Below are positions 1,010 to 54,318 of a stretch of 64,000 nt of DNA, piece after piece. A program made the position numbers and the translations under genes. The stretch spans positions 124,001 through 188,000 of the forward strand of contig NZ_AP022333.1 in NCBI RefSeq assembly GCF_009936375.1. Direction: 5' to 3'. Origin of the DNA: Methylosinus sp. C49. Lineage in GTDB: Bacteria > Pseudomonadota > Alphaproteobacteria > Rhizobiales > Beijerinckiaceae. The notes beneath the pieces were generated by a model. It was not told the DNA's origin. It made no database searches and saw nothing but the letters and a program-made list of their open reading frames with translations. Within the stretch, counting starts at the first letter, position 1, and each line of letters opens with the position of its first letter.

Positions 1010-1509
1010 GGCGCGGACTTCATCCAAGGCTCGAACGTGCTCAAAGTATAGCCCGTCTCTCCGCTGATGTGGAGGGTGGCGCCTCTGCATTCCCGGAGGC
1101 GTGTGTCGAAGCTGTGGCTCGTTTCGATCTGTCCGAGATCGGCTCGAACGCGCCCATGGTGATGCCATATGGTCGCCTGATAATGGACGCTGTCGGTCCC
1201 CGTCCGCTCTATGCCCGATGTTTCCAACGAAGTCTCTCGGCTGGAGCCGTCGGCGGCGATCGTCCTTTCGACGATGCTTCTCTTGTCCTCGGCATATTGG
1301 CGCTCTAGCTCTTCGACGCATGCGCGATGCGACGCGAGCGCTTGCGAAGACGGCGGGACCGGCAGCCTGCCGCTCGCATGGGCGGGCAATGACGCGCGAA
1401 AGATCTCGAGTCCCAAAGAAATCACCAGCGCTCCAGAACGTATCAACGCCATAGACGCTGCTTCAGCGACATTCGATCTGCGTCTTCGACCTTCATCGCG
1501 TCTCGCCAT
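1006..1509 (-). CDS. Hypothetical exported protein
   Basis: A 167-residue protein of unrecognised family. I chose the ATG at 1507-1509 because it gives a short basic N-terminus followed by a hydrophobic segment and an A-H-A cleavage site; an in-frame ATG 30 bases upstream and one 57 bases downstream are alternatives. The mature part has several acidic/Ser-Thr-rich stretches and two cysteines. It overlaps the ankyrin gene by four bases and the preceding gene by about 17 bases, so the three are probably co-transcribed. Confidence 0.6.
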   Translation of the reverse strand: MARRDEGRRRRSNVAEAASMALIRSGALVISLGLEIFRASLPAHASGRLPVPPSSQALASHRACVEELERQYAEDKRSIVERTIAADGSSRETSLETSGIERTGTDSVHYQATIWHHHGRVRADLGQIETSHSFDTRLRECRGATLHISGETGYTLSTFEPWMKSAP

Positions 1510-1918
1510 AATAGGGGGACTCTCCGCCTCGCGAATCATTCGTGTGCTCTTTTAAATTTGCGCAGACGCAAACGGTGTCGACGCAATTATTGGAAAGCTC
1601 CTTGTGAACAAAGGAGCAGTCCGGCTTCGAATGTACCGTTTCCCTCTTGGCGCCGTTCTCATAGGCGTAAACGGCGGCCTTCGTGTCCAGGATTTCCATG
1701 AGCCTCAATCCGCCGTTTTGGCAGATCAGCCGCTCGATCGGCTTTTTCCGCCTTTGACAGTCGAGGCAGGACGGCACGTCGCCGTAGAACTCCGACAACT
1801 CGCTGATCGCGCGCTTGACCTTGTCGACGTCCACGTTCGGGCAATCGACCGCAAGGGCGCGCCCCGCGACGCCGCCAAAAGACAAGATGAAGAGGGAGAG
1901 CAACAAAGCTGTTCGCAT
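1493..1918 (-). CDS. Small secreted cysteine-rich protein, LprI/DUF1311-like
   Basis: A 141-residue protein with a clear Sec signal peptide (MRTALLLSLF..., cleavage after ALA near residue 23). The centre has CLDCQRRKKPIERLIC followed by a predicted helix LRLMEILDTKAAVYAY. This resembles the C-x-n-EKAIC...L..LD..L...Y pattern of LprI/DUF1311 proteins, some of which inhibit lysozymes. The C-terminal part has additional cysteines (CSF, NNC, CVC). The family call is an inference from this short motif. It sits in a minus-strand run of exported proteins with short gaps. Confidence 0.6.
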   Translation of the reverse strand: MRTALLLSLFILSFGGVAGRALAVDCPNVDVDKVKRAISELSEFYGDVPSCLDCQRRKKPIERLICQNGGLRLMEILDTKAAVYAYENGAKRETVHSKPDCSFVHKELSNNCVDTVCVCANLKEHTNDSRGGESPYYGETR

Positions 1919-1957
1919 ATCATCATCCTTTGCATTTCTGTTTCGCGCGCTGAAGAC

Positions 1958-2638
1958 TCATCGAGTCGGCTCGACGCGGTCGACGCAGGCTCTCTTCGTC
2001 AAATCGCTCCCGGGCGTGAACAGAGAAAAGGAAAAGAATGTTTCGCCTGGACTGTTTTTTCCGCCGGCTTCGTTGCGGCCGGCGCGGACAAAAACCGGCG
2101 TCGTCGCGGCGGGAAGATCGATCCGAAAGAAAGCTGTGTGCTCGTCATCGGGCAGATCGCCAAATCCGCCCGTTTTGCAATTGTCGGCGAGCAAGGTCAC
2201 GGTCCCGCCGCTCAGCTGCCGTTGGAGAATTTCCTGATAATTGCCGCTCGGATAGAACTTCTGAAGCTCTATCGCGCGAACGCCCTTGGCGCTGTGGAAA
2301 ATGACATCGATCGAAGCGTCGCCTTCGTTGCCCTTTTTGTGCGTAGCGTTCGCGCCGATTCCGATCGGTAGATCGACCTCGCCAAATCCATTCAGGCGCA
2401 GTCGTCCGCGCAAATGGTATGTCACGCCGAGATCTTTTTCGGAATCTTCGGGATAGGCGAAGCCCTGCCATTCGATGTTCGAAAGCGCGGCGATGTCCTT
2501 CTCGCGCTTGCCCTGCGTGAAGGCGATGAGCAGCGTCTCGAGCGGGCCGGCTGCGGCGCGCGCCTCCGCCGAAGCGCCGAGAGCCAAAGCGAGAACGAGG
2601 GAAAGTGCAAAGCGATAGGTGCGGCAAGCGACAGCCAT
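1958..2638 (-). CDS. Hypothetical exported protein
   Basis: A 226-residue protein of unrecognised family. The start at 2636-2638 is preceded by a GAGAGA ribosome-binding site about 5 bases upstream; a longer in-frame start at 2686 has no comparable site. It has a signal peptide (RFALSLVLALALGASAEARA) and a beta-rich mature part with phrases such as VTYHLRGRLRLNG and DADCK-like cysteine pairs near the C-terminus. It overlaps no neighbour but lies 44 bases from the next upstream gene, probably in one operon. Confidence 0.65.
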   Translation of the reverse strand: MAVACRTYRFALSLVLALALGASAEARAAAGPLETLLIAFTQGKREKDIAALSNIEWQGFAYPEDSEKDLGVTYHLRGRLRLNGFGEVDLPIGIGANATHKKGNEGDASIDVIFHSAKGVRAIELQKFYPSGNYQEILQRQLSGGTVTLLADNCKTGGFGDLPDDEHTAFFRIDLPAATTPVFVRAGRNEAGGKNSPGETFFSFSLFTPGSDLTKRACVDRVEPTR

Positions 2639-2682
2639 GGTCTCTCTCGTTGTGCGAGATTCTCTTCCCAAAGGCGGAAATC

Positions 2683-3324
2683 TCATTTTTCAGAAGGAAA
2701 AAGCACGAAGCGCTCGCCTTTCAGCCGACTGGCTTTGTCCGGCCCGAGACTGCGTTCGCTGAAAGGGTCCACCTCGAACCAAGACAGCGAATAGGCGCCG
2801 GCATTGTGCTGAAAGCGCCACGAACCCCGCTCCCCGGCGTCCGCATCGGCGCCCCAAGGCTCATTGCTCGTAATCTCCAGGCTGTTTGGATCGATTTTCC
2901 CATTCTGAAGTCTGGTCACGACCTCGTATCCGGTCGCCCCGGGCTTCTCCGCCAACTCGGATCCGATGTCGTCGACCCAGCGAAGCTCATATGCAGGCTT
3001 TGCGAAATGCATCAGCCGATAGCCGGTGAAAGTCCGCCACAGGAGAAACACGCGTGTCCGAGCGGCGGAATACTCGCAATAGAGGTCGTAGATGATCGTG
3101 GCGACGTTGCCGTTCCGCGAGACCACGATCATTCGGTCATCCTTGATGAGGTTTATGTTATCGGTGTCGTCGCATCCGGCGTCGGTATGTGAGATGACGA
3201 ATTTGCGCGCCTCATTCACCGTTGGAGCGCCGGGCGGCGGTTCTGCGCTGCAGGCCGAGGCTTGCGCGAAGAGGGCCAGGGCGCAAAGAGGCGGGGCGAG
3301 CCGGGCGGAGATTTTATACCTCAT
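2683..3324 (-). CDS. Hypothetical exported protein (weakly DUF1176-like)
   Basis: A 213-residue secreted protein with an N-terminal signal peptide ending near CSA (residue 26). The mature part has CDD...NLIKDDRMIVVSRNG near its start, then YDLYCEYSAARTRVFLLW, and ends with a GSWRFQHNAGAYSLSWFEVDPF motif. The arrangement slightly recalls DUF1176 proteins, where a C-terminal W..DG..F strand closes the fold, but I cannot confirm this. It is the first gene of the minus-strand run that ends with the ankyrin protein. Confidence 0.6.
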   Translation of the reverse strand: MRYKISARLAPPLCALALFAQASACSAEPPPGAPTVNEARKFVISHTDAGCDDTDNINLIKDDRMIVVSRNGNVATIIYDLYCEYSAARTRVFLLWRTFTGYRLMHFAKPAYELRWVDDIGSELAEKPGATGYEVVTRLQNGKIDPNSLEITSNEPWGADADAGERGSWRFQHNAGAYSLSWFEVDPFSERSLGPDKASRLKGERFVLFPSEK

Positions 3325-3805
3325 GCAAGTTTCGACCTTCCCGCCTTCGCTTTTCCAAGATCATTGCGACGAGACGGGGAACGCGGCTATCGGGAAATCT
3401 CCCACCAGCGTCCGCAATTGGTGGGGACCGGACTGCCGCCAAGCTACGGGAGATGATCGAGCCGACCAAGAAATATGATGTACCGGTGCTTGCGAGCGGC
3501 AAAGCGGCGCCGTCGATATTGTCGCAGCTCTGGTCGGGCTACGTCCGCGACAAAATCGAGGCGGTCCGCTTCAGCAAACCCCAGCGGAGATCCGCTCGAA
3601 ATCTGCGGGGACTGTCCAGACAACCGGGGTCGGCTCTCGGCGATCCCGAGCCGCCGCTCGAAAAGCCGATAATGGATTGGCGTCGACAACCAAACCCTAT
3701 TTTATTAAAGCGCGTATGCACGCTCGTCACCGTTCCGATCCACCCTGCGTGAATGAGACGGGCTAGCGTAGCTCGATACAGGCGGGACGCCTCGAAGGAG
3801 CACTC
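3325..3805. other. Intergenic region without a convincing gene
   Basis: About 480 bases between divergent genes. Several short open frames exist on both strands but none has family resemblance, a good ribosome-binding site or consistent codon use. An AAGGAG ribosome-binding site for the downstream kinase lies just before 3806. The region must hold promoters for both directions, but no clear element can be named. Confidence 0.5.
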
Positions 3806-11718: not shown

Positions 11719-12882
11719 ATGGAGGGCGTTCGATTGAGACCCGAGGCTGTTGAGAGTGTGGACGACAGACTCGGTCGTGCGAGCCCGTCGCTCGAATCCC
11801 CGCGACCGAGCGAGCGATTCCGCATCGGTCTGTCTGGCTGCGGCGGTGGGCTGGAGTCCGTCTCGACATCGCAATTGCTCGATCTCGTCGAGAAGGTCGA
11901 GGCGCTCGGCTTCGACGCGATGTGGATCAATGAGGAGCATTTCCAAGGCAGCATCATCGAGGTGGAAGGACGGCGTTGCCATTCTCCGATCGCGCTCGCC
12001 GCGGCGATGCTCGCGCGCACCAAAAGGCTACGCGTCGGCTTTTCGGTGCTGCTGCTCGCGCTGCATCATCCCATCCGCCTCGCCGAGGAAATCGCGACTC
12101 TCGACGTGCTCTCGGACGGTCGCGTGGATTTTGGAATTTCGCGCGGCGGCAACGGGCGCTATCTCGAGGCTTACGGCGTTCCGGCCGAGGATGTGAACAC
12201 GCTGTTTCGCGACAATCTCGCGCTCATCCGGCGCGCCTGGAGCGACGAGAAGATCGCTTTCGGCGAAAATCTGCTCTCCATCGAGCCGAAGCCCACGCAG
12301 CGGCCGCATCCGCCGATCTTCATGGGAACCTATACGGACGAGACTGCCGCCTGGGCGGCGCATGAGGGCCATTCGCTCATCCTGCACGGCATCACCAGCA
12401 TGGCCAATCAACGGCGCTTGCTGAACGCCTATGTCGTGGCCGGCGGCGATCCCGGCCGCGCGCCCTTCGGCCGCTTCGTCTATGTGAGCGAAACGGATGC
12501 GCGGGCGCGGGAGGAGCTCTGGCCGACGGTCGAGAAGCTGACGACGCGTTTGCGCGGCTTCGGCCTGTTCAATCGTAAGGGAGTCGTCGCCGAGGCGGAT
12601 TTGGAGCCGGAGAACTTCTATCGCGACATGGTGATCGTGGGCTCGCCCGAGACCTGCGCGCAAAAAATTCTCGCGCTCAACGCGGAGCTCGGCGTCACCT
12701 ATCTCAATGCGCTGAGCGCCTTCTTCGGATTTCTCCCGCTGCCGCTGCTCGAGAAGTCGCTGGCCCTGCTCGCGAGGGAGGCGCGGCCGCTCGTCGACGC
12801 CGGTCTTCAGAAAAGCTCGGGAACGAAGGCGACGACGCCCCTCGCCTCCGCATCCTCGAGCCTCAGCAGCGGCGCGCCATAG
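11719..12882 (+). CDS. LLM-class flavin-dependent oxidoreductase (bacterial luciferase-like)
   Basis: A 387-residue protein of the luciferase-like monooxygenase fold that uses reduced flavin. Family features: FRIGLSGCGGGLESVSTSQLLDLVEKVEALGFDAMWINEEHF at residues about 35-75, then LLLALHHPIRLAEEIATLDVLSDGRVDFGISRG and PPIFMGTYTDETAAWAAHEGHS. The first 30-35 residues are an unusual extension, and no good ribosome-binding site precedes 11719, so a downstream start is possible. The 3' end overlaps the convergent ABC ATPase by 76 bases. Location beside a chelate importer suggests a role in modifying the imported compound, as inference. Confidence 0.85.
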   Translation: MEGVRLRPEAVESVDDRLGRASPSLESPRPSERFRIGLSGCGGGLESVSTSQLLDLVEKVEALGFDAMWINEEHFQGSIIEVEGRRCHSPIALAAAMLARTKRLRVGFSVLLLALHHPIRLAEEIATLDVLSDGRVDFGISRGGNGRYLEAYGVPAEDVNTLFRDNLALIRRAWSDEKIAFGENLLSIEPKPTQRPHPPIFMGTYTDETAAWAAHEGHSLILHGITSMANQRRLLNAYVVAGGDPGRAPFGRFVYVSETDARAREELWPTVEKLTTRLRGFGLFNRKGVVAEADLEPENFYRDMVIVGSPETCAQKILALNAELGVTYLNALSAFFGFLPLPLLEKSLALLAREARPLVDAGLQKSSGTKATTPLASASSSLSSGAP

Positions 12883-13601
12883 AGGCGGCTCATCGACTCG
12901 CGGTCGCAGACGTCCAGCGCGCGGCCTTCGGCGATCAGCCGGCCGCCGCGCAGCAGCGCCACGCGCGCATCGAGATTGAACGCCTGATCCGGGAGATGCG
13001 TCGTCATGATCACGGCTTTTCCGTCGGCGGCGAGGCTCTTCATCAAGCCGAGAACGCGGCCCTGATTGCCGAGATCGAGGCTCGACGTCGGCTCGTCCAT
13101 GATGATGATCGGCGCATCCTGCGCGACGGCGCGGGCGATGAGCGCGAGCTGGCGCTCGCCGCCGGAGAGCTGCGTGACGGGCTCGGCGCGCAAATGATCG
13201 ACGCCGATGTCGCACATCGCTCGGCGAGCGATCTCGCGATCGCGTAGCGATGGCGAGCCGATCCCGTCGATATGCGCGGTGCGGCCCATCAGCACCAATT
13301 GCTCCACAGTGAAGGCGAAGGCGCTATATCCCGATTGCGGCACATAGGCGATGCGCCGGGCGATATCCCGGCGCGAGAGGCCACGCAGCTCGTCGCCTTG
13401 CGCGCGGACCGTTCCGCGCTCGGGCGTCGCGAGACCGAGCAGGCAATGCACGAGCGTGCTCTTGCCGGCGCCATTGGGGCCGAGCAGCGCGAGCAGCTCG
13501 CCGGCGCGCAGCGCGAAGGAGACCGAATCGAGCGTGAGCTCGCGCTTCGCCCCGCGTCGGAAGCAAAGATCGACGATTTCCAGCGCCGCCGTCACGACCA
13601 T
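12807..13601 (-). CDS. ABC transporter ATPase, iron-complex/cobalamin importer type
   Basis: A 264-residue nucleotide-binding protein with Walker A GPNGAGKST (41-49), Q-loop YVPQSGYSAFAFTVEQ, signature LSGGERQ, Walker B IIIMDEPTSSLD and the H-loop TTHLPDQ. It matches FecE/BtuD-type subunits in length and layout. Its ATG overlaps the permease stop by about 10 bases. It is the last gene of a minus-strand operon (receptor, binding protein, permease, ATPase), an uptake path for a metal chelate or corrinoid. Confidence 0.93.
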   Translation of the reverse strand: MVVTAALEIVDLCFRRGAKRELTLDSVSFALRAGELLALLGPNGAGKSTLVHCLLGLATPERGTVRAQGDELRGLSRRDIARRIAYVPQSGYSAFAFTVEQLVLMGRTAHIDGIGSPSLRDREIARRAMCDIGVDHLRAEPVTQLSGGERQLALIARAVAQDAPIIIMDEPTSSLDLGNQGRVLGLMKSLAADGKAVIMTTHLPDQAFNLDARVALLRGGRLIAEGRALDVCDRESMSRLYGAPLLRLEDAEARGVVAFVPELF

Positions 13602-14617
13602 TGCTCGGCTCTGGTCCGCATGACCAGGAAAAGAAAGAAAGGCGCGCCGATCACCGCCGTCATCACGCCGAGTGGAATCTCGATGGCGGAGGCCGAGCGC
13701 GCGATATCGTCGACGCCGAGCACGAAAAGCGCGCCCAAAGCCGCGGTGGCGACAAAGGCGCGTCCGGGCTCCATGCCGAACGCCATCCGCGCGATATGCG
13801 GAATGAGCAGACCGACCCAGCCGATGATGCCCGCGACGCAGACGGTCGCCGCCGTCATCGCTGTCGCGCAGAGGATCACGATTGTGCGGAGCCGGGTCAC
13901 ATCGGCGCCGAGCGCAGCCGCCTCTCGCTCGCCGAGCGCGAGCAGGCTGATGCGCCATCGCAGCGCGTACAGAAGGCCGCCGCCGAGGAGAACGGGCGCG
14001 GCGACGGTGGCGGCGTCCATCGCATTGGCCTTGGCGAGACTCCCCATCAGCCAGAAGGTGATCGTGGCCAGCGTGTCGATCGGATCGGCGACATATTTGA
14101 CGAGCGAGATCAGCGCCTGAAACAGCGCCGACATCGCCATCCCGCAGAGGATGAGGGTGACGAGGGAATTGCCGCCGACGCTGCGGGCCGCGAGATAGGC
14201 GGCGCCGACGGCGGCGAGCCCGCCCGCGAAAGCCGCCGCTTCGACGCCGAGAGTCGGGAGATGGAACAGCAGCGCCAGCGAGGCGCCGTAGCCGGCGCCG
14301 GCGGAGACCCCGAGCAGCGCAGGCGAGGCCATGGGATTGCGGAAGACGATCTGATAGGCGGAGCCCGCGATCGCAAGCCCCGCGCCGATCATTATGGCCG
14401 TCGCGATGCGCGGAAGCCGCACCATCAAGATGATCGTCTCCGCCGTCGCGCCGACCTGCGAGCGCTCGTTGCCGCCGAGAAGCGTCGCGGCGATCGTCGT
14501 CAGCGATAGGGGATAGCGACCGATCGCCAGTGACGCGACGATCAGCGCGCCGAGCGCGAGGATCAGCGCAGCGATCGGCGCGCGGTCAACGCCCGGGAGA
14601 GTCCGCCAATATCTCAT
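13592..14617 (-). CDS. FecCD-family ABC permease
   Basis: A 341-residue integral membrane protein with about ten hydrophobic segments. FecCD motifs are present: RLPRIATAIMIGAGLAIAGSAYQIVFRNPMASPALLGVSAGAG near residues 65-110, and WVGLLIPHIARM in the C-terminal third (the ATPase-contact loop). The ATG at 14617 overlaps the binding-protein gene by 32 bases and has an AAAGAG-like site. It forms the homodimeric membrane channel of the importer. Confidence 0.93.
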   Translation of the reverse strand: MRYWRTLPGVDRAPIAALILALGALIVASLAIGRYPLSLTTIAATLLGGNERSQVGATAETIILMVRLPRIATAIMIGAGLAIAGSAYQIVFRNPMASPALLGVSAGAGYGASLALLFHLPTLGVEAAAFAGGLAAVGAAYLAARSVGGNSLVTLILCGMAMSALFQALISLVKYVADPIDTLATITFWLMGSLAKANAMDAATVAAPVLLGGGLLYALRWRISLLALGEREAAALGADVTRLRTIVILCATAMTAATVCVAGIIGWVGLLIPHIARMAFGMEPGRAFVATAALGALFVLGVDDIARSASAIEIPLGVMTAVIGAPFFLFLVMRTRAEQWS

Positions 14618-15593
14618 CGATCTGCTCTTTGCCGAGCGGCACATGAAAAAAGCGATCGTAGAAGGATCGCATCTCGTTTTCGAGCGCTGCGCGGGGGAAT
14701 TTCTCGGGATAGAGAATCGAGGCGGCCCAGAGCACGGTGAGCGGCTGCTCGATCGTGCGATTGGCCCAAAGATGCGCGCCGCCGGGCGCCACATGCACAC
14801 GGCCGTTGCGCACAGCCGCGACGTCGCGCAGCCGCGGCTCCGCCTTCACCAGCTCGACCTCCGCGCGATCAGGAACGATCACCACCTCGGGGTTCCAGCC
14901 TATCATCTGCTCGAGCGAGAAAGTGACGCTCTCCTCCGTCCTTCGGTCGTCGGTGACGCTGTGTCCGCCGGCGCGCGCCATCCACCATTCGGCGATTCGG
15001 TGCGGCTGCGTGAGGCGGCGATAATTCACATAGAGCACGCGCGGTCGTTGCGCTTCCTCGATCGGGCCGAGCGTCGTCGCGACGCGCGCGAGCGTCTCGT
15101 CGAAATAGCGGATATAATCCTCGGCGCTCTTCCGCTCGTCGAGGATTTCTCCCAAGAGCCTCATCAGCGTCTTGACGTCGTCCGGCTCACGCCATTTCAG
15201 CAGCACGGCGGGCAGGCCGAGGGCCGAGAGCTTGTCGGTTGCGCTGCGATCCATCGTCAAAACGAGATCGGGCCGCAGCGCGACGATATCCTCCACCGCG
15301 AGGCCCGCGGAGCTCTGCACCACCGGCCGCGTCGCGAGATCGGGGGCGAAGACGAATTGATATTTGCGCGTGAGCTCGCGCGGCAGCCCATTGGCGATCG
15401 CCTGCTGCCGGCCGAAGGCGAAGAGAAAACCGTTGAGAACCGGAACCGGGCCGATCGTGACGATGCGCGAGATCTCGTCGGACAGCGTCACGCGGCGCCC
15501 GTCCATGTCGAGGATCGTTCGACATTCGCCCGGCGCGCCCGACGCCAGCAGCGCCAGAGCGAGGCAGACGATGCGCGTCAAATGCATCGACAT
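14586..15593 (-). CDS. Periplasmic chelate-binding protein of an iron-complex-type ABC importer
   Basis: A 335-residue secreted protein. The start at 15593 follows GAGGGG at suitable spacing; an ATG 18 bases upstream and one 6 bases downstream are alternatives. The signal peptide ends near GECR. The two-lobed fold is indicated by RRVTLSDEISRIVTIGPVPVLNGFLFAFG, the EDIVALRPDLVLTMDRSATDKL block and YRRLTQPHRIAEWWMARAGGHSV. The lobe-linker helix and ANRTIEQPLTVLWAASILYPEKF end are typical of this class (Peripla_BP_2). It lies between permease and receptor and delivers the receptor's cargo. Confidence 0.88.
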   Translation of the reverse strand: MSMHLTRIVCLALALLASGAPGECRTILDMDGRRVTLSDEISRIVTIGPVPVLNGFLFAFGRQQAIANGLPRELTRKYQFVFAPDLATRPVVQSSAGLAVEDIVALRPDLVLTMDRSATDKLSALGLPAVLLKWREPDDVKTLMRLLGEILDERKSAEDYIRYFDETLARVATTLGPIEEAQRPRVLYVNYRRLTQPHRIAEWWMARAGGHSVTDDRRTEESVTFSLEQMIGWNPEVVIVPDRAEVELVKAEPRLRDVAAVRNGRVHVAPGGAHLWANRTIEQPLTVLWAASILYPEKFPRAALENEMRSFYDRFFHVPLGKEQIDEILADSPGR

Positions 15594-15616
15594 GGACGGG
15601 TCCCCTCGCATGGCCG

Positions 15617-17914
15617 TCAGAAAGACGCCGACATGCCGGCGAAGATCGTCCGCGGCGCGCCGACGAAATAGGAGGTGCTGTTCAGATTTGTCTCGGTGAC
15701 GGAGATCGCGCTGATGTAGCGATGATCGAAGAGATTGCTCACTCCGGCGGAAACGGTCATCGGCGTCAGGCCGAGCTTGCCGCCGAACTCATAGGACGCC
15801 GTAACGTCCACGAGCGCGTACGGGCTCACCGCCTGCGTATTGTCGGCGAGGCCGTAGCGCGTGCTGTTGAAGCGGAAGACCGGCGTGATCGAAAAGCCGT
15901 CGCGATAACAGGTCGCTGCGAGCTTGGCCGAATAGCGCGGGGTATAGGGCGTCTGCTTGCCGCCGACGCGCATGATCGAGGAAGCGCCGGCGGCGACATC
16001 GGCGACATAGGTTTCGGCGGCGATTGTCGCGCTGCCGGTCAGCGTCAGCCAATCGGTCGCCTTCCAGCTCGTCTCGAGCTCGAAGCCGCGGCCGACAGTG
16101 GCGGCGTTGCTCTGATAATAGCTCTGTCCGACGGCGGGATCGAAGACCAGCACTTCCTTCTTATGCGTCCAGAAACCGAAGAAGGTCGGCGCGATCGTCA
16201 GATCGCCGGTCTGATAGCGCAGGCCGACATCGACCGCGTCGACCGTCTCGGGCCGAATCCGTCCCATGAGCGTCGCGAGATTGATTCCCTTCGCGAGAAA
16301 GGCCGCCTCGGCGCCGAGGAAAGCGCTCGCCTGCGGCCCCCAGTCCGGGCGGCCGACCTTGCGAGAATAGCTGGCGCTGGCGCTCCATTCCTCCGAAAGG
16401 CGATGGCGCACGCCGAGATTGGGCAGCCATTCGTAATAGGTCAGCTCGGGCGCGCTGGCGTTCGTGTCCGGCGACGGGCGGAAGCTCCACACATCTGAAT
16501 AGGCGACGTCGGGCAGACCTGCCGTGTTGAAATACTGCAGATTGGGCGTGCTCTCTATGTGGAGGCGCACGCCGCCGGAGACGGTCGTCGGGCCAAAGGT
16601 CTGCGTATATTGCGTGTAGGGACTGAAGAGCTTGTGCGTGTCGCTCGTCGCGAGCGTGGAATAGCGCAAGAAATTCAGCGTGCCGAGCGGCGTCGCCGTA
16701 TAGAGTTTCTGATGCAGGGGCGGCGGCTCCGGCTCCGTCGACTGAGCCCAGAAGCCGAGCAGGAAATCGGCGTCCCACGGCAGATGCTTGCTATATTCGA
16801 TCGTGCCGCCGAGATTGTAATTGCTGATCGGCCACAAGCGGACATTCGCGCCGGCGACCGTCTCTTGATAGCCGGTGTTGCGCCAGTAATAGGGCTTTGC
16901 GACGATCGTTTGAGTCGGATCGATGTGATAGGCGATCTCGGCGAAAATCGCATTCGTCACATGGCGGGTGCGGTTGAATGTGTAATAGCTGGCGTCGATC
17001 CCCGATCTTCCTGTGAGGCTCGTGTTATAGTCGAAAAAGGCCGTCGCGCCGAGATTTTGCGTCTGCGCGAATGTCAGCGGCATATAGCTGTTCGCCTTCT
17101 GATCATTGTGGACGCCATAGACAGCGACCTCCAGCTGGTCGCCGAGCGATTGTGTGAGGCCGAAAGCGACATTCTTGCGTCGCGCATCGCCCTCGCCCTT
17201 CCATTTCTCCGCGTCGGCAATCGACCCGGAGACGAAGAAGGACGTTCCTGTCGGCAAGCGCCCGGAGTCGATGCGCGCAAAAGTGCGATGAAATCCGTTG
17301 GAGCCGACGCCCTGAGAGATCGTCCCGCTCAATTTTTCTTTCGGCGGAAGCAGATTGAGGTCGAGCACGCCGGCTGCGTTGGAGAAGCCGAGGCCCTGAT
17401 TTGCGGGAATGCTTCCGCGATAGAGGTCGATGCGGCCGATGTCGTCGAGATCGAATAGATCGGCGCCGCCGACAATGCCTTGGATCGGCAATCCGTTGAT
17501 CGTTCGCGCCAGAAAGAAGTCCGACACGCCGCGCACCGTGATGCTGCGGTTGAAGGACAGGCCGTAAGGATCGGCCGAGTCCTCGATGACGCTCGGCATC
17601 ATGTCGAGCGCCTTGTAGGAGCTCGCTTGCGCTGGACCGCCGAGAATCTCGATGCCTTCGCGCGTCACCGAGGTCTTGGGAGTCGGCATATTGTCTGTCG
17701 CCGGATCGCTCAATGCGTCGCCCGGTCGCCCGGAGCGAAAGCGATCGTTGGCGCTTCTCCCTCGATCGGGTCGAGGCGCGCTGTCGACGCCGATATCGAT
17801 CGACGGCAGAACTTCCTGGCCTCGCGTGGGCGAGGCGGCTCCGAGCAGCGCCAGGAATGAGACGCCATATATTTTGCTCAGACGAGAGCAATGTGTCCTG
17901 CTATTTATGTCCAT
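15617..17914 (-). CDS. TonB-dependent receptor of the chelate importer
   Basis: About 765 residues from the ATG at 17914; an upstream in-frame ATG at 17953 adds 13 residues. A signal peptide (LSKIYGVSFLALLGAASPTRGQ) is followed by a TonB-box-like VLPSIDIG. A plug follows (TSVTREGIEILGGPAQASSYKALDMMPSV; RSITVRGVSDFFLARTINGLPIQG), and then a beta-barrel closing with an aromatic C-terminus (FAGMSASF). The plug sentence SIPANQGLGFSNAAGVLDLNLLPP is unusual. Its stop lies 23 bases before the binding-protein start, so it heads the operon. Ligand unknown; Fe-siderophore, corrinoid or another metallophore are all possible. Confidence 0.9.
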   Translation of the reverse strand: MDINSRTHCSRLSKIYGVSFLALLGAASPTRGQEVLPSIDIGVDSAPRPDRGRSANDRFRSGRPGDALSDPATDNMPTPKTSVTREGIEILGGPAQASSYKALDMMPSVIEDSADPYGLSFNRSITVRGVSDFFLARTINGLPIQGIVGGADLFDLDDIGRIDLYRGSIPANQGLGFSNAAGVLDLNLLPPKEKLSGTISQGVGSNGFHRTFARIDSGRLPTGTSFFVSGSIADAEKWKGEGDARRKNVAFGLTQSLGDQLEVAVYGVHNDQKANSYMPLTFAQTQNLGATAFFDYNTSLTGRSGIDASYYTFNRTRHVTNAIFAEIAYHIDPTQTIVAKPYYWRNTGYQETVAGANVRLWPISNYNLGGTIEYSKHLPWDADFLLGFWAQSTEPEPPPLHQKLYTATPLGTLNFLRYSTLATSDTHKLFSPYTQYTQTFGPTTVSGGVRLHIESTPNLQYFNTAGLPDVAYSDVWSFRPSPDTNASAPELTYYEWLPNLGVRHRLSEEWSASASYSRKVGRPDWGPQASAFLGAEAAFLAKGINLATLMGRIRPETVDAVDVGLRYQTGDLTIAPTFFGFWTHKKEVLVFDPAVGQSYYQSNAATVGRGFELETSWKATDWLTLTGSATIAAETYVADVAAGASSIMRVGGKQTPYTPRYSAKLAATCYRDGFSITPVFRFNSTRYGLADNTQAVSPYALVDVTASYEFGGKLGLTPMTVSAGVSNLFDHRYISAISVTETNLNSTSYFVGAPRTIFAGMSASF

Positions 17915-17950
17915 TCGAGTTGATGCCCCGCCGACCGCGCCGCTTTTCGC

Positions 17951-17971
17951 CATATAACTAGAATATATATT
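17951..17971 (-). promoter_or_regulatory. AT-rich near-palindromic motif upstream of the receptor operon
   Basis: An ATATAA...AGAATATATAT run lies 37-57 bases before the chosen receptor start. It resembles the 11697-11718 element at the opposite end of the convergent cluster, both being interrupted ATATA palindromes. This suggests a shared regulator or similar strong -10 regions. Confidence 0.4.
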
Positions 17972-18585
17972 CATGTCCACGGACCTGGGCGCGGCGCGGC
18001 GAATTTTTTTAAAAAATGTTACGGTATTGCAAGTGGTTGCACTAAATCGTGGCGATCCTGACCGCAGGGGCGGCAATATGCCCGGTTCGGCGGCTGAGGG
18101 ATCCTATCATCGACGCCGGCTAGCGGCGGCAGCGCCGCGTTTCCCCCGAACAAGAAATCGCGGGGCCTTTCCCGCGCCGACCTGCGCGACCAGATATCGG
18201 ACTCCGAGCCGTGCGGCGATTTTATGCTCTTGCCGCATATGCTCGGCTCTCGTGACGAGCCGCGACCGTATATACGCGAGCTCGCGTCACAGATGCGCCG
18301 CCGGCCGGCGCCGTTCCGCCGCGCGCAATTTCGGCTCGAAGGGCGGCTGCAAAAATCCTGGGACGAGCACGACCGTATCGTCCAGTCGATTCTCGCGCGC
18401 GATATTGCCGCCGCCGGATCGGCCTCCCGAGATCATTAGACCGTCGTCGGCGCCGCGAGCGTGATTTTTGTCAACGACGCCGCCATCGCCACATGATTGT
18501 CGAGACGACGGCCGAGTTCCCGTAGCCGAGCCGACGATGAGCAAGCGGGCCGGTCGAGACTCGCCCGACGAGCTCTCGACGCGCG
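17972..18585. other. Intergenic region without a convincing gene
   Basis: About 610 bases. A short AT-rich patch (18001-18050) contains a T7A6 stretch and a repeated TTGCA word (18028-18041), probably part of the receptor-operon promoter. The remainder is high-GC with only unsupported open frames. No RNA gene or mobile element was recognised. Confidence 0.5.
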
Positions 18586-19416
18586 TCAGCGACTTCGCGT
18601 CTTGGCGAAGGCGGCTTTTCCGGCGTCGCTCATATCTTGCTTCAGCCCGACGAACATGCTCTCGATCATTGTCGTGACCGCGCGCGGCGCCGTCTCGGGC
18701 TCGCCGGCCGAGAAAGGCGGCTCCGGCGCATATTGCGCGAGAAGCTGCACGCCCTCTGCGTAAGTCCGGTCGCGCAATCGCGCGACGAGCGCGAGCGCGA
18801 AGTCGAGCCCCGCCGTCACGCCTTCCGCCGTGATCCGGTCGCGGTCGTGCACGACGCGCCCATCGGCGGGCGTCGCGCCGAAGATCGGCAGCAGCGGCTT
18901 CGTCACCCAATGCGATGTCGCCCGGTAGCCGTCGAGCAGGCCCGCCGAGCCGAGCAGCAGCGAGCCGGTGCAAACGGAGGTGATATGGCTCGCCTTGCGC
19001 GACGCCGTGCGCAGATAGGTGAGCGTCGCCTCGTCGCGCATGGCGGCGAGCGTCCCGTTCGAGCCGCCGGGAACGCAGAGTATATCGACCTCCGTCGCAT
19101 CCTCGAAACGCGCCGAGGGCGTGAAGACGAGCCCGGTGTCGCTGCGCACAGGCTCTTTCGTCTTGGCGACGATCTCCACTTTCGCGCCCATGAGGCTCGC
19201 CAGCATATATTGCGGACCGACCATGTCGAGCGCGGTGAAGCCTGGATAGATCAGAAAGGCGATCTTCTCCTTTCCCATCCAATGCGCCGGCATGGCGGAC
19301 ATGTCATGCGAAGGCGGCGGAGCGGCGGCCTCCGCCGCCGTGAGCGAACCGCTCGCCAGCAGCGTCGCAAAGGCCGCGATTCCTTCGCCGAAACGGCGGC
19401 GGTCGATCTCGCTCAT
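18586..19416 (-). CDS. Exported DJ-1/PfpI-family protein, isonitrile-hydratase-like
   Basis: A 276-residue protein. An IDRRRFGEGIAAF twin-arginine-like signal and an AEAA site near residue 31 indicate export. The glutamine-amidotransferase-like domain begins at IAFLIYPGFTALDMVGPQYML (51-71). It has the nucleophile elbow SVCTGSLLLGSAGLLDGYRATSHW with Cys149 as probable catalytic residue, and Asp64 in LDMVGP. It ends with ITAEGVTAGLDFALALVARL and LAQYAPEPPF. This set of motifs matches isonitrile hydratases of the DJ-1 superfamily more closely than chaperone DJ-1. The gene lies eight bases after the receptor gene, in the same operon. Confidence 0.85.
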   Translation of the reverse strand: MSEIDRRRFGEGIAAFATLLASGSLTAAEAAAPPPSHDMSAMPAHWMGKEKIAFLIYPGFTALDMVGPQYMLASLMGAKVEIVAKTKEPVRSDTGLVFTPSARFEDATEVDILCVPGGSNGTLAAMRDEATLTYLRTASRKASHITSVCTGSLLLGSAGLLDGYRATSHWVTKPLLPIFGATPADGRVVHDRDRITAEGVTAGLDFALALVARLRDRTYAEGVQLLAQYAPEPPFSAGEPETAPRAVTTMIESMFVGLKQDMSDAGKAAFAKTRSR

Positions 19417-19424
19417 CGTCGCTC

Positions 19425-21671
19425 CTACATTCGCGCAGAGACGGTGACGAAGAAGGTGCGTCCTTCCGCCGGCGCCAGATTTCCCGAGAGATAGGGGTAT
19501 TGCACGAGATAGCGCCGATCGCCGAGATTCTTGGCGTTGAGGGCGAAGGTGAAATTCTCGTGCTTATAGGTGAGCGCCGCGTCGAAGACGACATAGCCGC
19601 TCGTCGTCCATGGTTGGCCGAGCTCGACGACCTGACCTGAAGCGGCGTAGAGGCCCGCGCCGAGCGACCAGCCCGCCAGCGCGCCGGTGAAGGCGTAATT
19701 ACCCCACAACCGCCCCGAATCCGGCGGCGCGAGATTGAGCGGAACATTTTGCAGCTTCGGATTCGCATTGCGCGAGATTTTCGCGTCGATATGCGCATAG
19801 CTCGCGAGAATGGAGAGCTCGGCGGTCGGCTGCCACACGAGGTCGGCCTCGAAGCCGGAAGAATGCCATTCTCCCGACTGCGTCTGCGTGAGGGCGCCGA
19901 GCGCCGTCGTCGGCACATTGGTGCGCTTCAGATCGAAATAAGCGAGCGTGCCGGAGAGGCCATAGAGTCCGTCGAGCTTGACGCCCGCCTCGAATTGCTC
20001 CGAGCCCTCGGGCTTGGGCGCGGCGCCATTCGGACCGTTGAAGAAGGTGACGGCGCGCAGGCCCTGCGAATAGCTTCCATAGACGGACAGCCAATCGAGA
20101 ACGTCATAGGTCGCGCCGGCGCGCGGCAGCACTTTGGTCTCGCTGGTCGAGAAGGTGCGCGGCGGCGTATAGGCGCCCTCGTAACTGTCGATGTCGATCA
20201 TGGCGACGCGCAAAGCGCCGAGGAAATGCAGGCGATCGAAGATCGTCGACTGCAATTGCACGGTCGCGCCGGCGTTCTGATACTGATTATTGCTCGCATT
20301 GAAGACCGCATAGCCGGACTGGCCGGGCAGCGGATTGGCGTAGAGCGGAAAGACGGGCGCGCGGAAATCGGTCGGCTGCGGGAAGCCGAACAGACCATAG
20401 ATGCTCGAATCCGGGCCGGTCGCATAGGCCGCAGCCATCCGTCCACGCTCCCAGACGCGATTGAAATCGCCGCCGACGAGCAAGCGATTTTGCGTCGGCC
20501 CCATGTCGAATTTGGCGACGACATTGGAGGTAATCGCGAATTCGTCGAGCTGCTGCGCGAGTATCACGTTCAGCATAGCGAATTGGCTGGGCCCGCCATA
20601 GGCGCCGAAGGACGGGTCGACCGAAAAGGTGGGCAGATTGCCGGAGAAGGGAATTTGCGACGGCTCGTACATTCGCGAAGAGGTCCAACGCGCGCTGGTG
20701 AAAGTCGAGAACGTCTCGTCGAAGCGATGATCGAATCGAACGGTCACGCCCGACGATTCCGTGGTCGCGTCGGGCATGTGCGAATTGGCGAGGAAGCTCG
20801 TCGGGCGCAGCGAATAGAAGGAGCGGTCGATGGTTCCCGTGGCCGGAAGACCAGGATAGTCGGGCTGATCGCGACGCGAGATATGGCCTTGCACGACGAG
20901 CGACGTGTCCTCGTTCGGCGCGATCTTCAGCGTCGGATCGATCGAATAGCTGCGGCGGTGAACGACGTCTATGTTGGAATGCGTCGACTCATATTGCGCG
21001 GTCAGACGGAACAGCACGCTCTTATCGTCGGTGAGCGGCTGATTGACGTCGATATAGGGGCTGACAAAACGATAGCCGCCAGCGCGCACGCCGGCCTCGG
21101 CGAAGCATTCCGCTGTCGGCATTTTGGACACGACATCGACGACGCCGCCGACGGGGCTCGCGCCGCCCTGGAACAAAATGCTCGCAGGGCCTTTCAGCAC
21201 CTCGATGCGCTCGACATTGGCGAGCAGATCGCGCACGCCGAGATCATAGTAATTGGGCAAGCCGTCGACATAGCGCTCGGCGCGCATGCCGCGCAGGCTC
21301 GGCCCGGTTCCGCCCGGAAACAGCGGATCGACCGCATGCAGGCCGGAGACGTTGCGGAAGGCCTCGCTCTGCGAGATCGCCTGTTGATCGTCGATGAGCT
21401 TGCGCGGGATCACCTGGATGGACAGCGGCAGCTCGCGGATGGGCGTCGCCAGACGCGTCGCCGTCGCGGTCTCCGCTCGATAGCCGCGCACCGGACCGGC
21501 CGTCGTCTGAACGGTCGGGGTCCCCTGCCCCACGTCCTCCGTCCCGCGTCGCGGACGGGCGCCGTCGATCTCGATCGGCGGCAGCAGCTCCTGGGCGAGC
21601 GCGCCGCCGCCCAGGCAGAATATGGCCAGCGCATTCGCGCCGACGCTTCGCAGAAGATCGCGATCGAGCAT
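19425..21671 (-). CDS. TonB-dependent siderophore receptor (FhuA/FpvA type)
   Basis: A 748-residue protein whose ATG is preceded by an excellent AGGAGG five bases upstream. The signal peptide ends near ALAQ and is followed by a TonB-box-like PPIEIDG. The plug has the siderophore-receptor pattern TPIRELPLSIQVIPRKLIDDQQ, SEAFRNVSGL, RGMRAERYVDGLPNYYDLG and VERIEVLKGPASILFQGGASPVGGVVDVVSK. The barrel ends with VTVSARM. It is transcribed with the DJ-1/PfpI gene and away from an OmpR-type two-component system, which may control it. Confidence 0.93.
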   Translation of the reverse strand: MLDRDLLRSVGANALAIFCLGGGALAQELLPPIEIDGARPRRGTEDVGQGTPTVQTTAGPVRGYRAETATATRLATPIRELPLSIQVIPRKLIDDQQAISQSEAFRNVSGLHAVDPLFPGGTGPSLRGMRAERYVDGLPNYYDLGVRDLLANVERIEVLKGPASILFQGGASPVGGVVDVVSKMPTAECFAEAGVRAGGYRFVSPYIDVNQPLTDDKSVLFRLTAQYESTHSNIDVVHRRSYSIDPTLKIAPNEDTSLVVQGHISRRDQPDYPGLPATGTIDRSFYSLRPTSFLANSHMPDATTESSGVTVRFDHRFDETFSTFTSARWTSSRMYEPSQIPFSGNLPTFSVDPSFGAYGGPSQFAMLNVILAQQLDEFAITSNVVAKFDMGPTQNRLLVGGDFNRVWERGRMAAAYATGPDSSIYGLFGFPQPTDFRAPVFPLYANPLPGQSGYAVFNASNNQYQNAGATVQLQSTIFDRLHFLGALRVAMIDIDSYEGAYTPPRTFSTSETKVLPRAGATYDVLDWLSVYGSYSQGLRAVTFFNGPNGAAPKPEGSEQFEAGVKLDGLYGLSGTLAYFDLKRTNVPTTALGALTQTQSGEWHSSGFEADLVWQPTAELSILASYAHIDAKISRNANPKLQNVPLNLAPPDSGRLWGNYAFTGALAGWSLGAGLYAASGQVVELGQPWTTSGYVVFDAALTYKHENFTFALNAKNLGDRRYLVQYPYLSGNLAPAEGRTFFVTVSARM

Positions 21672-21929
21672 TTGGCCTCCTGATTTGCTCAATTCCCTCG
21701 ATTGGACGCGCCGCATCCGCGTCGGGCGTAGGGAGCCAACCTTTCACGGAGATAACATGGAGCCGCGAGGACGGGGATTTCTCGCTCGCAGCGCCAGAGG
21801 TTGCGCGCCGGATGCGCCATGCCTTATGATCGAGCCCTTCGCGTGCGGCGGAGCGACAGAAAAAATGTATCGCAGCTTCCTATCCGGCAGCGCCCGCCTC
21901 GGGCTGTGCTCTAGCTTCCGCGTGTCCTG

Positions 21930-22607
21930 ATGCGCGTCCTGCTGGTCGAGGACGAGGCCGAGATGGCCCATGCGCTGGCCCTGCGGCTCGGGCGCTCGGG
22001 CTTCATAGCCGATCATGTGGGCGCGGTGGGCGACGCCCGCGCCGCGCTCGCCTGTCACCGCTATGGTCTGGCGGTTCTCGACCGACGCCTTCCCGATGGC
22101 GACGGGCTCGACCTCCTGCCTGAAATTCGGCGTCTTCAGCCGGATGTCCGCATTCTGATCCTCACCGCCTGTGAGGCGGTGAGCGAGCGGGTCAGCGGGC
22201 TCGACGCCGGCGCCGACGACTATCTCGCCAAGCCGGTGGATTTCGACGAGCTGATGGCGCGCGTGCGCGCCTGCCTGCGCCGCGCCGGCGGCCCCGTCAC
22301 GCCGCCCGTCGTGATCGGCCGGCTCGCCTTCGATCTCGCCGCCCGCGAGGTCTTGGTGGACGGCGCGCCCGTCGTGCTGCATCGCCGCGAGCTCGCTCTG
22401 CTGGAGGCGCTGGCGCGTAGCGCCGGACGCATCGTGCTGCGCGGTCGGCTCGTCGAGGAGGTCTATGGGTTCGACGACGACGTCGAGGTCAATGCGCTGA
22501 ATATTCTCGTGTCGCGTCTGCGCAGACGACTCGCCGAGCTCGGCGCCGAGGTGGAGATTCATTCGGCGCGGGGGATCGGCTACATGCTCGCGAAAGCTTC
22601 GCCGTGA
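21930..22607 (+). CDS. OmpR/QseB-family response regulator
   Basis: A 225-residue protein: receiver domain (MRVLLVEDEAEMAHAL; probable phosphorylation Asp51 in LAVLDRRLPDGDG; signature Lys in DDYLAKPVDFDEL) and a winged-helix DNA-binding domain (VVLHRRELALLEALARSAGRIVLRGRLVEEVYG; VEVNALNILVSRLRRRL). Its stop overlaps the kinase ATG by one base. It is divergent from the siderophore-receptor operon and 258 bases away, so it probably regulates that operon. Confidence 0.93.
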   Translation: MRVLLVEDEAEMAHALALRLGRSGFIADHVGAVGDARAALACHRYGLAVLDRRLPDGDGLDLLPEIRRLQPDVRILILTACEAVSERVSGLDAGADDYLAKPVDFDELMARVRACLRRAGGPVTPPVVIGRLAFDLAAREVLVDGAPVVLHRRELALLEALARSAGRIVLRGRLVEEVYGFDDDVEVNALNILVSRLRRRLAELGAEVEIHSARGIGYMLAKASP

Positions 22608-24055
22608 TGCGCCGCCGGTCGCTCGCGCTGCGCCTGATGATCTATCTCGCGATCACGCAGATCGCCGGCACATTGCTGCTCGTTCCGATCGTGGATTTCC
22701 TGGTCTCCGTGTCGGGCGTCCTGCCCGGCTGGGAGATCTCGCGCGACGATTGGGGCGAGCATCGCCTGCAGGCCCTCGTCGCTCGCTCGTTGACGCGCGA
22801 CGAGGCTGGCGCGGCGCGCCTCGAGCCGACGCCGGAGCTGCGGGCCTATCTCGCGGAAAATCCGCTGGCGCGCTACGCCGCCTTCGATTGCCGGAGCGGC
22901 GCCCTGCCCGGCTCGTCGCCGGAGCTGGTGCAGGCGCTCAGCGGCCTCGACCGTCTCGAGGCCGCGTCTTTGAAATTCCGCCTCGCGGGCGATGGCGACG
23001 CGCGGGCGCGTGGCGCGTTGCGGCGCATGCCCGCCGGCTCGGCGGCCTGCGCCATCGCGGCCTATGGCTATCGTTTCGCCTGGAGCGATCTCCACGCCGT
23101 CTCGGGGCTGTTCCTGACGTTGCACAGCGCCATCGTCATCGCGCCCGCCGTGCTTATCGCGCTGGCCATCGCATGGCTCGTCGTGCGCCGGGGGCTCGCG
23201 CCGCTTCGCGCCGCTGCAGCGGATGTGGCGGCGATCGACATGGACACGCTGCACAAGCGCCTCGGCGTCGATGACGCGCCCAAGGAGATCGCGCCCTTCG
23301 TCGAGGCCGTCAATGACGCGCTCGGTCGGCTCGATGCGGGCGTCGCCGCGCAGCGCCGCTTCACGGCCAATGCGGCGCATGAGCTGCGCACGCCGATCGC
23401 GATCATGCGCGCGCACGCCGATAATCCCGATGACGCCGCCTTTCGCTGCGACATGAAGCGCGACATACGCCGCGTGCAGACGATCGTCGAGCAATTGCTG
23501 GCGACCGCGCGCTTCTCGATCCGCGAGGCGCCCGCGGATGTGGACATAGATCTCGGCGAAGCCGTCCTCGCCATCGTCGCCGACTACACGCCGCTGATGA
23601 TCGAGAACGGCCGCCGCATCGCCTTCGAGCCGCCGTCGACGCCGACGATCGCGCGTGGCGACAAATGGGCGCTCGAATGCGTCGTCGCCAATCTGCTCGA
23701 CAATGCGCTGCGCGCCGAGCCCCCGGGGGGCGTCGTCGACGTTCGCGTGCTGCCGAGCGCCATCGTCGAAATCGCCGACCATGGCGCCGGCGTTTCGGAC
23801 GCGGACCGCGACAGGATTTTCGAGCCCTTTTGGCGGCGCGACGCCAAGGGTCACGGAACCGGCCTCGGCCTCGCGATCTCCAAGACGCTCGCGGAGCTGA
23901 TGGGGGGATCGATCTCGATCGTCGAAACGTGCGGCGGCGGCGCGACCTTCCGCATCGCGCTGCGCAAGAGTCGCGCCCCACAACCGATCAGATCCTCGAG
24001 CCGAGTGGAGTTCCAACGCGCGGAAGGCGGAGCAGAGGAGCTGCGCTCGGCCTGA
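22607..24055 (+). CDS. Sensor histidine kinase
   Basis: A 482-residue kinase with two transmembrane helices (about 9-35 and 165-195) around a 130-residue periplasmic sensor. Then come a HAMP-like linker, a HisKA domain with the H-box AANAAHELRTPIA-type (probable His258) and a HATPase domain (NLLDNALRAEP, DHGAGVSDADRDRIFEPFWRRD, GTGLGLAISKTLAEL). The ATG shares its first base with the regulator's stop (TGATG). The periplasmic domain has two cysteines (YAAFDCRSG and SAACAIAAYG), but the signal cannot be predicted. Confidence 0.92.
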   Translation: MRRRSLALRLMIYLAITQIAGTLLLVPIVDFLVSVSGVLPGWEISRDDWGEHRLQALVARSLTRDEAGAARLEPTPELRAYLAENPLARYAAFDCRSGALPGSSPELVQALSGLDRLEAASLKFRLAGDGDARARGALRRMPAGSAACAIAAYGYRFAWSDLHAVSGLFLTLHSAIVIAPAVLIALAIAWLVVRRGLAPLRAAAADVAAIDMDTLHKRLGVDDAPKEIAPFVEAVNDALGRLDAGVAAQRRFTANAAHELRTPIAIMRAHADNPDDAAFRCDMKRDIRRVQTIVEQLLATARFSIREAPADVDIDLGEAVLAIVADYTPLMIENGRRIAFEPPSTPTIARGDKWALECVVANLLDNALRAEPPGGVVDVRVLPSAIVEIADHGAGVSDADRDRIFEPFWRRDAKGHGTGLGLAISKTLAELMGGSISIVETCGGGATFRIALRKSRAPQPIRSSSRVEFQRAEGGAEELRSA

Positions 24056-26971: not shown

Positions 26972-27006
26972 CTATCAAGTGCCATATATTGATAGCATCA
27001 CTATCA
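26972..27006 (+). promoter_or_regulatory. Three-half-site operator before the toxin-antitoxin operon
   Basis: CTATCA (26972-26977), TGATAG (26990-26995) and CTATCA (27001-27006) lie 20-55 bases before the antitoxin ATG. The last two form an inverted repeat with a 5-base spacer. Ribbon-helix-helix antitoxins of the FitA/VapB type repress their own promoter through such repeats; binding here is inferred. Confidence 0.6.
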
Positions 27007-27026
27007 CCCGAGACAGAAACGCCATC

Positions 27027-27281
27027 ATGCCTGCTGTCACCATCCGCAACCTCTCCGAAGAGACGCATCGCGCGCTGAAGGTCCGTGCGGCGCAGCACGG
27101 ACGCAGCACGGAAGCGGAGATACGCGACATCCTGGAGAACGCTGTGCGCCCGGCCAATCGTCTCCGCCTTGGAAGCGCGCTGGCGGAAATGAGCCGGAAG
27201 ATCGGCCTGACCAACGCCGACGTCGAAGCCCTCGAACAGGCCCGCGAGCAGAAGCCGGCAGAACCGCTGCGCTTCGAATGA
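27027..27281 (+). CDS. FitA/VapB-type ribbon-helix-helix antitoxin
   Basis: An 84-residue protein from the ATG at 27027. The N-terminal ribbon-helix-helix is MPAVTIRNLSEETHRALKVRAAQHGRSTEAEIRDILENAV, the FitA-like sequence. The C-terminal tail (LRLGSALAEMSRKIGL...) would wrap around the toxin. Its stop overlaps the toxin start (ATGA at 27278-27281). It should neutralise the toxin and, with it, repress the operon. Confidence 0.92.
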   Translation: MPAVTIRNLSEETHRALKVRAAQHGRSTEAEIRDILENAVRPANRLRLGSALAEMSRKIGLTNADVEALEQAREQKPAEPLRFE

Positions 27282-27700
27282 TCCTGCTCGACACCAATGT
27301 CGTCTCCGAGGCGATGAAGCCCGAACCGGACCCGGCGGTCCGCCGATGGCTCGATGAGCAGGCGGCGGAAACGCTCTATCTCTCGAGCGTCACGATCGCT
27401 GAGCTGATGTTCGGCGTCGGCGCGCTTCCCAAGGGCAAGCGCAAGGACAGGTTGACCGCCGCGCTCGAAGGCGTGCTGGAGCTGTTCGCGGACCGCATCC
27501 TCCCGTTCGAGACGAACGCGGCGCGCCGCTATTCCGATCTGGCGGTGAAGGCGCGCGCTGCCGGAAAGGGGTTCCCCACACCGGATGGCTATATCGCCGC
27601 CATTGCCGCATCGCATGGTTTCGTCGTTGCATCCCGCGACCGCAGCGCATTCGCGGCCGCCGGCCTGAGCGTGATCGACCCCTGGGCCGCCGGGGCCTGA
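27278..27700 (+). CDS. FitB/VapC-type PIN-domain ribonuclease toxin
   Basis: A 140-residue PIN protein. The catalytic acidic residues are visible in LLDTNVVSEAMKP (Asp5), SSVTIAELMFGV (Glu), TPDGYIAAIAASHGF (Asp) and VASRDRSAF (Asp). The family cleaves RNA, commonly initiator tRNA, in the VapC/FitB branch. It forms a complete pair with the preceding antitoxin and may stabilise the replicon. Confidence 0.93.
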   Translation: MILLDTNVVSEAMKPEPDPAVRRWLDEQAAETLYLSSVTIAELMFGVGALPKGKRKDRLTAALEGVLELFADRILPFETNAARRYSDLAVKARAAGKGFPTPDGYIAAIAASHGFVVASRDRSAFAAAGLSVIDPWAAGA

Positions 27701-49317: not shown

Positions 49318-49348
49318 GGCCTCGCCGTCCGATGCGCTTGCGCCGCGA

Positions 49349-54309: not shown

Positions 54310-54318
54310 GCGGCGCTC

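Follow-up and report, generated by a model that had tools for sequence, protein, structure and literature searches.

The window analysed here, a 64,000-nucleotide stretch of DNA from Methylosinus sp. C49, lies on the 322-kb contig C2 of a host genome of five contigs and 4.7 Mb, the nearest named relative of which is Methylosinus sp. Sm6. The host is regarded as a methanotroph because a profile search of its genome identified three AMO-family (PF02461) genes and two mbnB genes above cut-off, and it carries two methanobactin operons. The features of the locus are as follows.

18586..19416, minus strand: predicted Tat-exported DJ-1/PfpI, isonitrile-hydratase-like enzyme of 276 aa (P0001), from the ORF, Pfam PF01965, 3EWN and ICH relatives, a structural model and its superposition on ICH
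19327..19416, minus strand: twin-arginine (Tat-like) signal region, residues 1-30, DRRRFGEGIAAFATLLASG, from the sequence and the RR/KR motif in relatives
19225..19227, minus strand: codon of Asp64, counterpart of catalytic Asp17 of PfICH (PMC10971408), from alignment; invariant in 38 relatives
18970..18972, minus strand: codon of Cys149, counterpart of the nucleophile Cys101 of PfICH, from alignment; invariant in 38 relatives
19425..21671, minus strand: TonB-dependent receptor, 748 aa from the ATG at 21671 (the ORF extends to 21716), from the Pfam Plug and barrel domains, the AGGAGG at its start and its clade of DJ-1-paired receptors
21672..21929, no strand: divergent intergenic region between receptor and response regulator, from the sequence
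21930..22607, plus strand: response regulator of a divergent two-component pair, from the ORF; in the same position in the C4 cassette, in genus relatives and on Methylocystis iwaonis plasmids
22604..24055, plus strand: sensor histidine kinase, 483 aa, with HisKA and HATPase_c; one of 13 paralogues in the host genome
26560..26799, minus strand: C-terminal remnant of a third exported DJ-1 copy, 46-51% identical to residues 195-275

The receptor start at 21671 has AGGAGG just 5' of it, and the junction from receptor to enzyme consists of the stop codon TAG, 8 bp and an ATG, with TAGGAG as the Shine-Dalgarno sequence of the enzyme. Since all of these elements are in place, the coordinates of both genes stand, as does the statement of the earlier note that the enzyme starts eight bases past the receptor gene; a good Shine-Dalgarno sequence is present at both. 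No sigma-70 consensus was found in the intergenic region between receptor and response regulator. Elsewhere in the window, the ORFs 26979-27281 and 27278-27700 beside the DJ-1 remnant have, by eye, the look of a FitA/VapC-type toxin-antitoxin pair. On the minus strand at 47890-56214, a short SecA paralogue (665 aa) adjoins PqqD-domain, GAF-HlyD, second HlyD and TolC-like proteins, and a repetitive, calcium-binding-like protein of 2429 aa is encoded upstream of this cluster (56683-63972, minus strand); together they perhaps constitute a dedicated export system.

The response regulator and kinase genes diverge from those of the receptor and the DJ-1 protein, forming a four-gene cassette, a second example of which is located on host contig C4 and encodes a DJ-1 protein 67% identical to that of the window. 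Plasmids of two Methylocystis iwaonis strains carry the cassette too, with its genes annotated, and eight of ten genomes of the host's genus, its own among them, encode relatives of the enzyme at E < 1e-110. On the Methylocystis plasmids (L231 and L232), the cassette adjoins a pqqA gene and an mxa methanol dehydrogenase cluster, a neighbourhood that makes lanthanide or another metal possible for methylotrophs. The two-component pair was considered as a link to copper and set aside. Its OmpR-type regulator/kinase family has 13 copies in the host, including that at 22604-24055, and 3-13 in most other genomes of the genus; several of the host copies lie 1.5-7 kb from siderophore-type receptors, and the window kinase is 47% identical to the kinase beside the receptor at the plasmid methanobactin operon. 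As the family is general and receptor-linked, the regulator is uninformative on copper specifically and was treated as neutral.

The window enzyme belongs to DJ-1_PfpI (PF01965, 94 bits in Pfam), and its best solved relatives are 3EWN (250 bits) and the isocyanide hydratase of P. fluorescens (185 bits). It holds SVCTGSLLLGSAGLL and LDMVGP, which the earlier note had read as isonitrile-hydratase motifs. Their presence is borne out, but they are common to the whole family, and the best NCBIfam match is the GlxA/AraC-type regulator GbdR (79 bits, far under cut-off), so that the motifs alone do not demonstrate an isonitrile hydratase. Moreover, the enzyme falls outside the ICH clade: in a quick tree of 85 sequences, a 98%-supported branch splits a signal-less clade holding the assayed ICH/InhA enzyme from a mostly Tat-exported sister clade, which contains the window protein, 3EWN and all 31 receptor-paired proteins. 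The window enzyme is therefore related to the isonitrile hydratases without being a proven member of that group. The host also encodes a further, InhA-like paralogue that has no signal (L007).

The signal of the enzyme starts with MSEIDRRRFGEGIAAFATLLASG and comprises an N-terminal RR motif followed by a hydrophobic stretch, an arrangement conserved in relatives. An RR/KR motif is found in 30 of the 31 receptor-paired relatives, and the RR motif occurs in 55 of 65 members of the exported clade versus none of 18 in the InhA clade, so that chance does not account for the motif. The Tat-like export proposed for this protein is thus upheld as a prediction from a conserved motif.

An AlphaFold2 monomer model of the enzyme (mean pLDDT 91.6) superposes on PfICH with an rmsd of about 1.0 A over 225 residues and a TM of 0.97, at 41-42% identity in the structural alignment, and scores far better on PfICH than on DJ-1; it has the DJ-1 fold with an ICH-type C-terminal region. 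Asp17 and Cys101 are the catalytic residues of PfICH (PMC10971408), and the enzyme correspondingly possesses a Cys nucleophile (Cys149) and an Asp general acid/base (Asp64). Together with Tyr229, these two residues are invariant in 38 relatives, while Asp205 is nearly so. The position of PfICH Gly150, a residue whose mutation to Thr slows ICH (PMC10971408), is taken by Glu198 rather than by a small residue in all three Methylosinus copies compared (window, C4 and Sm6), whereas the remaining sequences with a recognisable motif have Ala or Gly there.

The loci surveyed comprised 80 related loci from named genomes and the two cassettes of the host itself, 82 in all. A same-strand receptor gene lies directly upstream of the DJ-1 gene in 31 of them, spanning alpha-, beta- and gammaproteobacteria and one acidobacterium (a Pyrinomonadaceae MAG), and a real, widespread functional pairing of receptor and DJ-1 protein is thereby supported. 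That a single family of enzymes recurs beside these receptors is an argument for the imported molecule being what the enzyme acts on. As a separate observation, L184 carries at 853-3474 two genes for a membrane cytochrome unit, with a weak match to Cyt_bd_oxida_I, some 7 kb away from the methanobactin operon of the plasmid, and similar genes are situated near receptor–DJ-1 pairs in L049 and L092.

Same-strand copper genes were found near 14 of the 31 pairs versus 1 of 35 siderophore-type receptor loci (Fisher p = 5e-5), a comparison in which the control loci were drawn from the window's order, the pair loci are not fully independent, and the copper profiles take their seeds from these very loci, with the main families checked with Pfam. 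The genes concerned are PCuAC, SCO1/SenC, MbnP, CCP_MauG/MbnH, CopC/CopD, DUF1775, CusF and DUF2946-like, and every one found lies on the strand of its pair. PCuAC is the most frequent neighbour family in Pfam scans (seven in total), followed by SCO1/SenC, and it is present in 10-11 of 29 pair loci, against 0.16 expected from genome copy number. In L062, the PCuAC, SCO, receptor and DJ-1 genes are co-directional with overlapping or 29-bp junctions, the gene order in L073 is SCO-PCuAC-receptor-DJ-1-DUF1775, and MbnPH genes lie near three pairs. In 12 pair genomes that were selected because they contain copper genes, roughly 150 receptor plug domains are listed; by eye, about three of those that do not belong to a pair locus lie within 7 kb of a PCuAC match. 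The DUF2946 calls are just under the Pfam cut-off in L062 and L069 and without Pfam support in L103; L103 is counted via PCuAC, and leaving out DUF2946 altogether would cost L079 alone. Weak CopD-profile matches on PCuAC ORFs were ignored, one seed being a CopD-PCuAC fusion. The remaining 17 of the 31 pairs have no nearby copper gene, and the pairs of the window, of contig C4 and of Methylosinus sp. Sm6 adjoin none. The recurrence of the pair, often within copper-handling operons, suggests the uptake of a copper-carrying molecule and the release of its copper. A copper role for the receptor–DJ-1 family is considered probable, and we infer a role in copper acquisition for the window copy.

The reading preferred here, with a probability of about 0.5, is that the pair constitutes a copper-acquisition module in which the enzyme breaks down the chelator, most plausibly by isonitrile hydration. 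In this scheme, a copper chelate that other microbes probably produce would cross the outer membrane through the receptor. In the periplasm, the Tat-exported enzyme of ICH fold would then use Asp64 and Cys149 to destroy the chelator, the most plausible reaction being hydration of isonitrile groups to formamides, and the freed Cu(I) would pass to chaperones of that compartment, for example PCuAC and SCO. Isonitriles suggest themselves as the candidate substrate, since the enzyme has a hydratase fold and catalytic residues and isonitrile natural products, described as copper-binding chalkophores (PMC10792529), chelate copper. Taken by itself, isonitrile hydration as the step of chelator breakdown is a tentative proposal drawn from homology, at somewhat less than even odds. 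An isonitrile synthase gene of the PF05141 type was found neither in the host nor in 29 pair genomes by a search that covered this family, as distinct from ScoE-type oxidases, and was positive elsewhere, so that endogenous isonitrile synthesis of this type was rejected and an isonitrile ligand would be foreign. A more specific version, in which non-producers import the copper-isonitrile complexes of their neighbours and the Tat-exported hydratase branch destroys the ligand, handing Cu(I) to PCuAC/SCO-type chaperones, may hold but is on the unlikely side. The idea of an isonitrile metallophore processed after uptake, advanced as speculation in the earlier note, is thus supported in part, by the export signal, the TonB pairing, the ICH fold with its Asp and Cys, and a copper link that comes from the neighbourhoods of other bacteria; the enzyme belongs to a sister clade of ICH, and an isonitrile substrate and a copper function of the window copy itself would be conjecture.

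Copper uptake may also be coupled to another substrate, such as thioamide, nitrile or small metabolite chelates, or the protein may act as a Cys-based Cu(I) carrier. This is the less likely case, although the copper context is solid while the isonitrile chemistry derives from homology alone, and CrtA imports carboxylate chelates, with no chalkophore found for it (PMC12914433). The ICH fold at 1 A and the full Asp/Cys/Asp/Tyr set, on the other hand, favour hydratase-type catalysis. In line with a carrier or another copper ligand, the mature N-terminus ahead of the fold is enriched in His/Met (13% vs 5.6%), but most of this stretch is modelled at pLDDT 81-94 and need therefore not be a metal-binding tail; as it is mostly ordered in the model and 3EWN has no His there, it was rejected as a weak candidate for a copper site.

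A conventional role of the receptor in ferric-siderophore uptake, with a partner in the periplasm that would process the siderophore and so release iron, is regarded as improbable. With its Plug and barrel domains (Pfam), the window receptor matches TIGR01783 (siderophore subfamily) at 219 bits, just under the cut-off of 223.5, and scores with FhuA/FetA/FoxA, and further downstream the window holds an operon for an iron-type ABC importer. This operon (12807-18076, minus strand), in which a second TonB receptor is followed by a Peripla_BP_2 binding protein, a FecCD permease and an ABC ATPase, is co-directional with the pair, but a gap of about 0.5 kb separates it from the DJ-1 gene upstream, it is not a recurrent neighbour of such pairs, and it has the appearance of an independent import operon of the iron/corrinoid type. 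In a FastTree phylogeny of 29 usable paired receptors and 35 comparison receptors (34 siderophore-type receptors and the second receptor of the window), 25 of the 29 form one clade (support 92) free of all 35; of the other four, which lie outside it, L042, L068 and L073 make up a second clade (support 100), and the fourth is L077. Most paired receptors thus stand apart from the 34 siderophore-type ones, and the recurrent neighbours of the pairs are copper genes. A direct copper site made of receptor Met/Cys was likewise considered and rejected, as no Met or Cys beyond the start Met is conserved in the receptor clade; TIGR01778 (OprC/TonB-copper) is absent among the matches of the window receptor (P0002).

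Isonitrile hydratases have been discussed as defensive (PMC10971408, PMC10792529), and the enzyme might serve to detoxify isonitrile antibiotics for which the receptor is a route into the periplasm. Such a function appears more doubtful still, since it leaves the recurrent co-direction with copper chaperones and the dedicated receptor clade unexplained, and the signal-less InhA-like paralogue (L007) of the host is available for that role. Uptake or processing of methanobactin, to which the two mbnB loci above cut-off and the kinase paralogue by the receptor near the plasmid mbn operon might point, is highly improbable, given that the window receptor is only 25-29% identical to receptors near the host mbn operons, that MbnT1 and MbnT2 are reported to be the sole receptors for two tested methanobactins in M. 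trichosporium OB3b (PMC9601215), and that the pair is present in lineages without a reported methanobactin link.

Open-licence titles and abstracts on isonitrile hydratase with copper or TonB contain no receptor–DJ-1 pair, and an earlier description elsewhere is possible. To our knowledge, few TonB-linked copper importers are known. For CrtA, the best-studied new receptor family, no high-affinity ligand could be found (PMC12914433). If the chelator-destroying copper module proposed here is real, the combination of a dedicated receptor and an exported enzyme that destroys the ligand would point to both a substrate class and a mechanism of copper release, isonitrile hydratases, so far thought defensive, would gain a nutritional role, and methanotrophs would have a copper route besides methanobactin.

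Among known systems, MbnT/MbnPH uptake resembles the pair in combining a receptor with periplasmic processing genes for a copper chelate, and differs in that the pair has an ICH-like partner enzyme, no mbn genes beside it and the low receptor identity given above. Copper-responsive TonB receptor operons have been described with DUF2946, SCO, PCuAC, YcnI, CopC and MbnPH (PMC9426467, PMC12914433), and, like Bordetella CruR (DUF2946)-CrtA-PepSY, the pair loci join a TonB receptor with copper genes. The accounts of CrtA-type operons make no mention of a DJ-1 partner (PMC9426467, PMC12914433), and the window receptor is not of the CrtA family, CrtA (9RVQ) matching it weakly, over the plug (residues 74-230 alone, 61 bits, far below FhuA/FetA). 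The P. syringae ThiJ/PfpI protein 3EWN, whose entry title gives no function, belongs to the same exported clade, its nearest row being an Achromobacter receptor-paired protein. Unlike the window enzyme, the ICH clade lacks a signal peptide and, in the present sample, a receptor partner; the window enzyme in turn has Glu198 in place of Gly150 and sits in the sister clade, yet, like Pseudomonas InhA/ICH, it keeps the DJ-1 fold and the counterparts of Asp17, Cys101, Asp157 and Tyr181.
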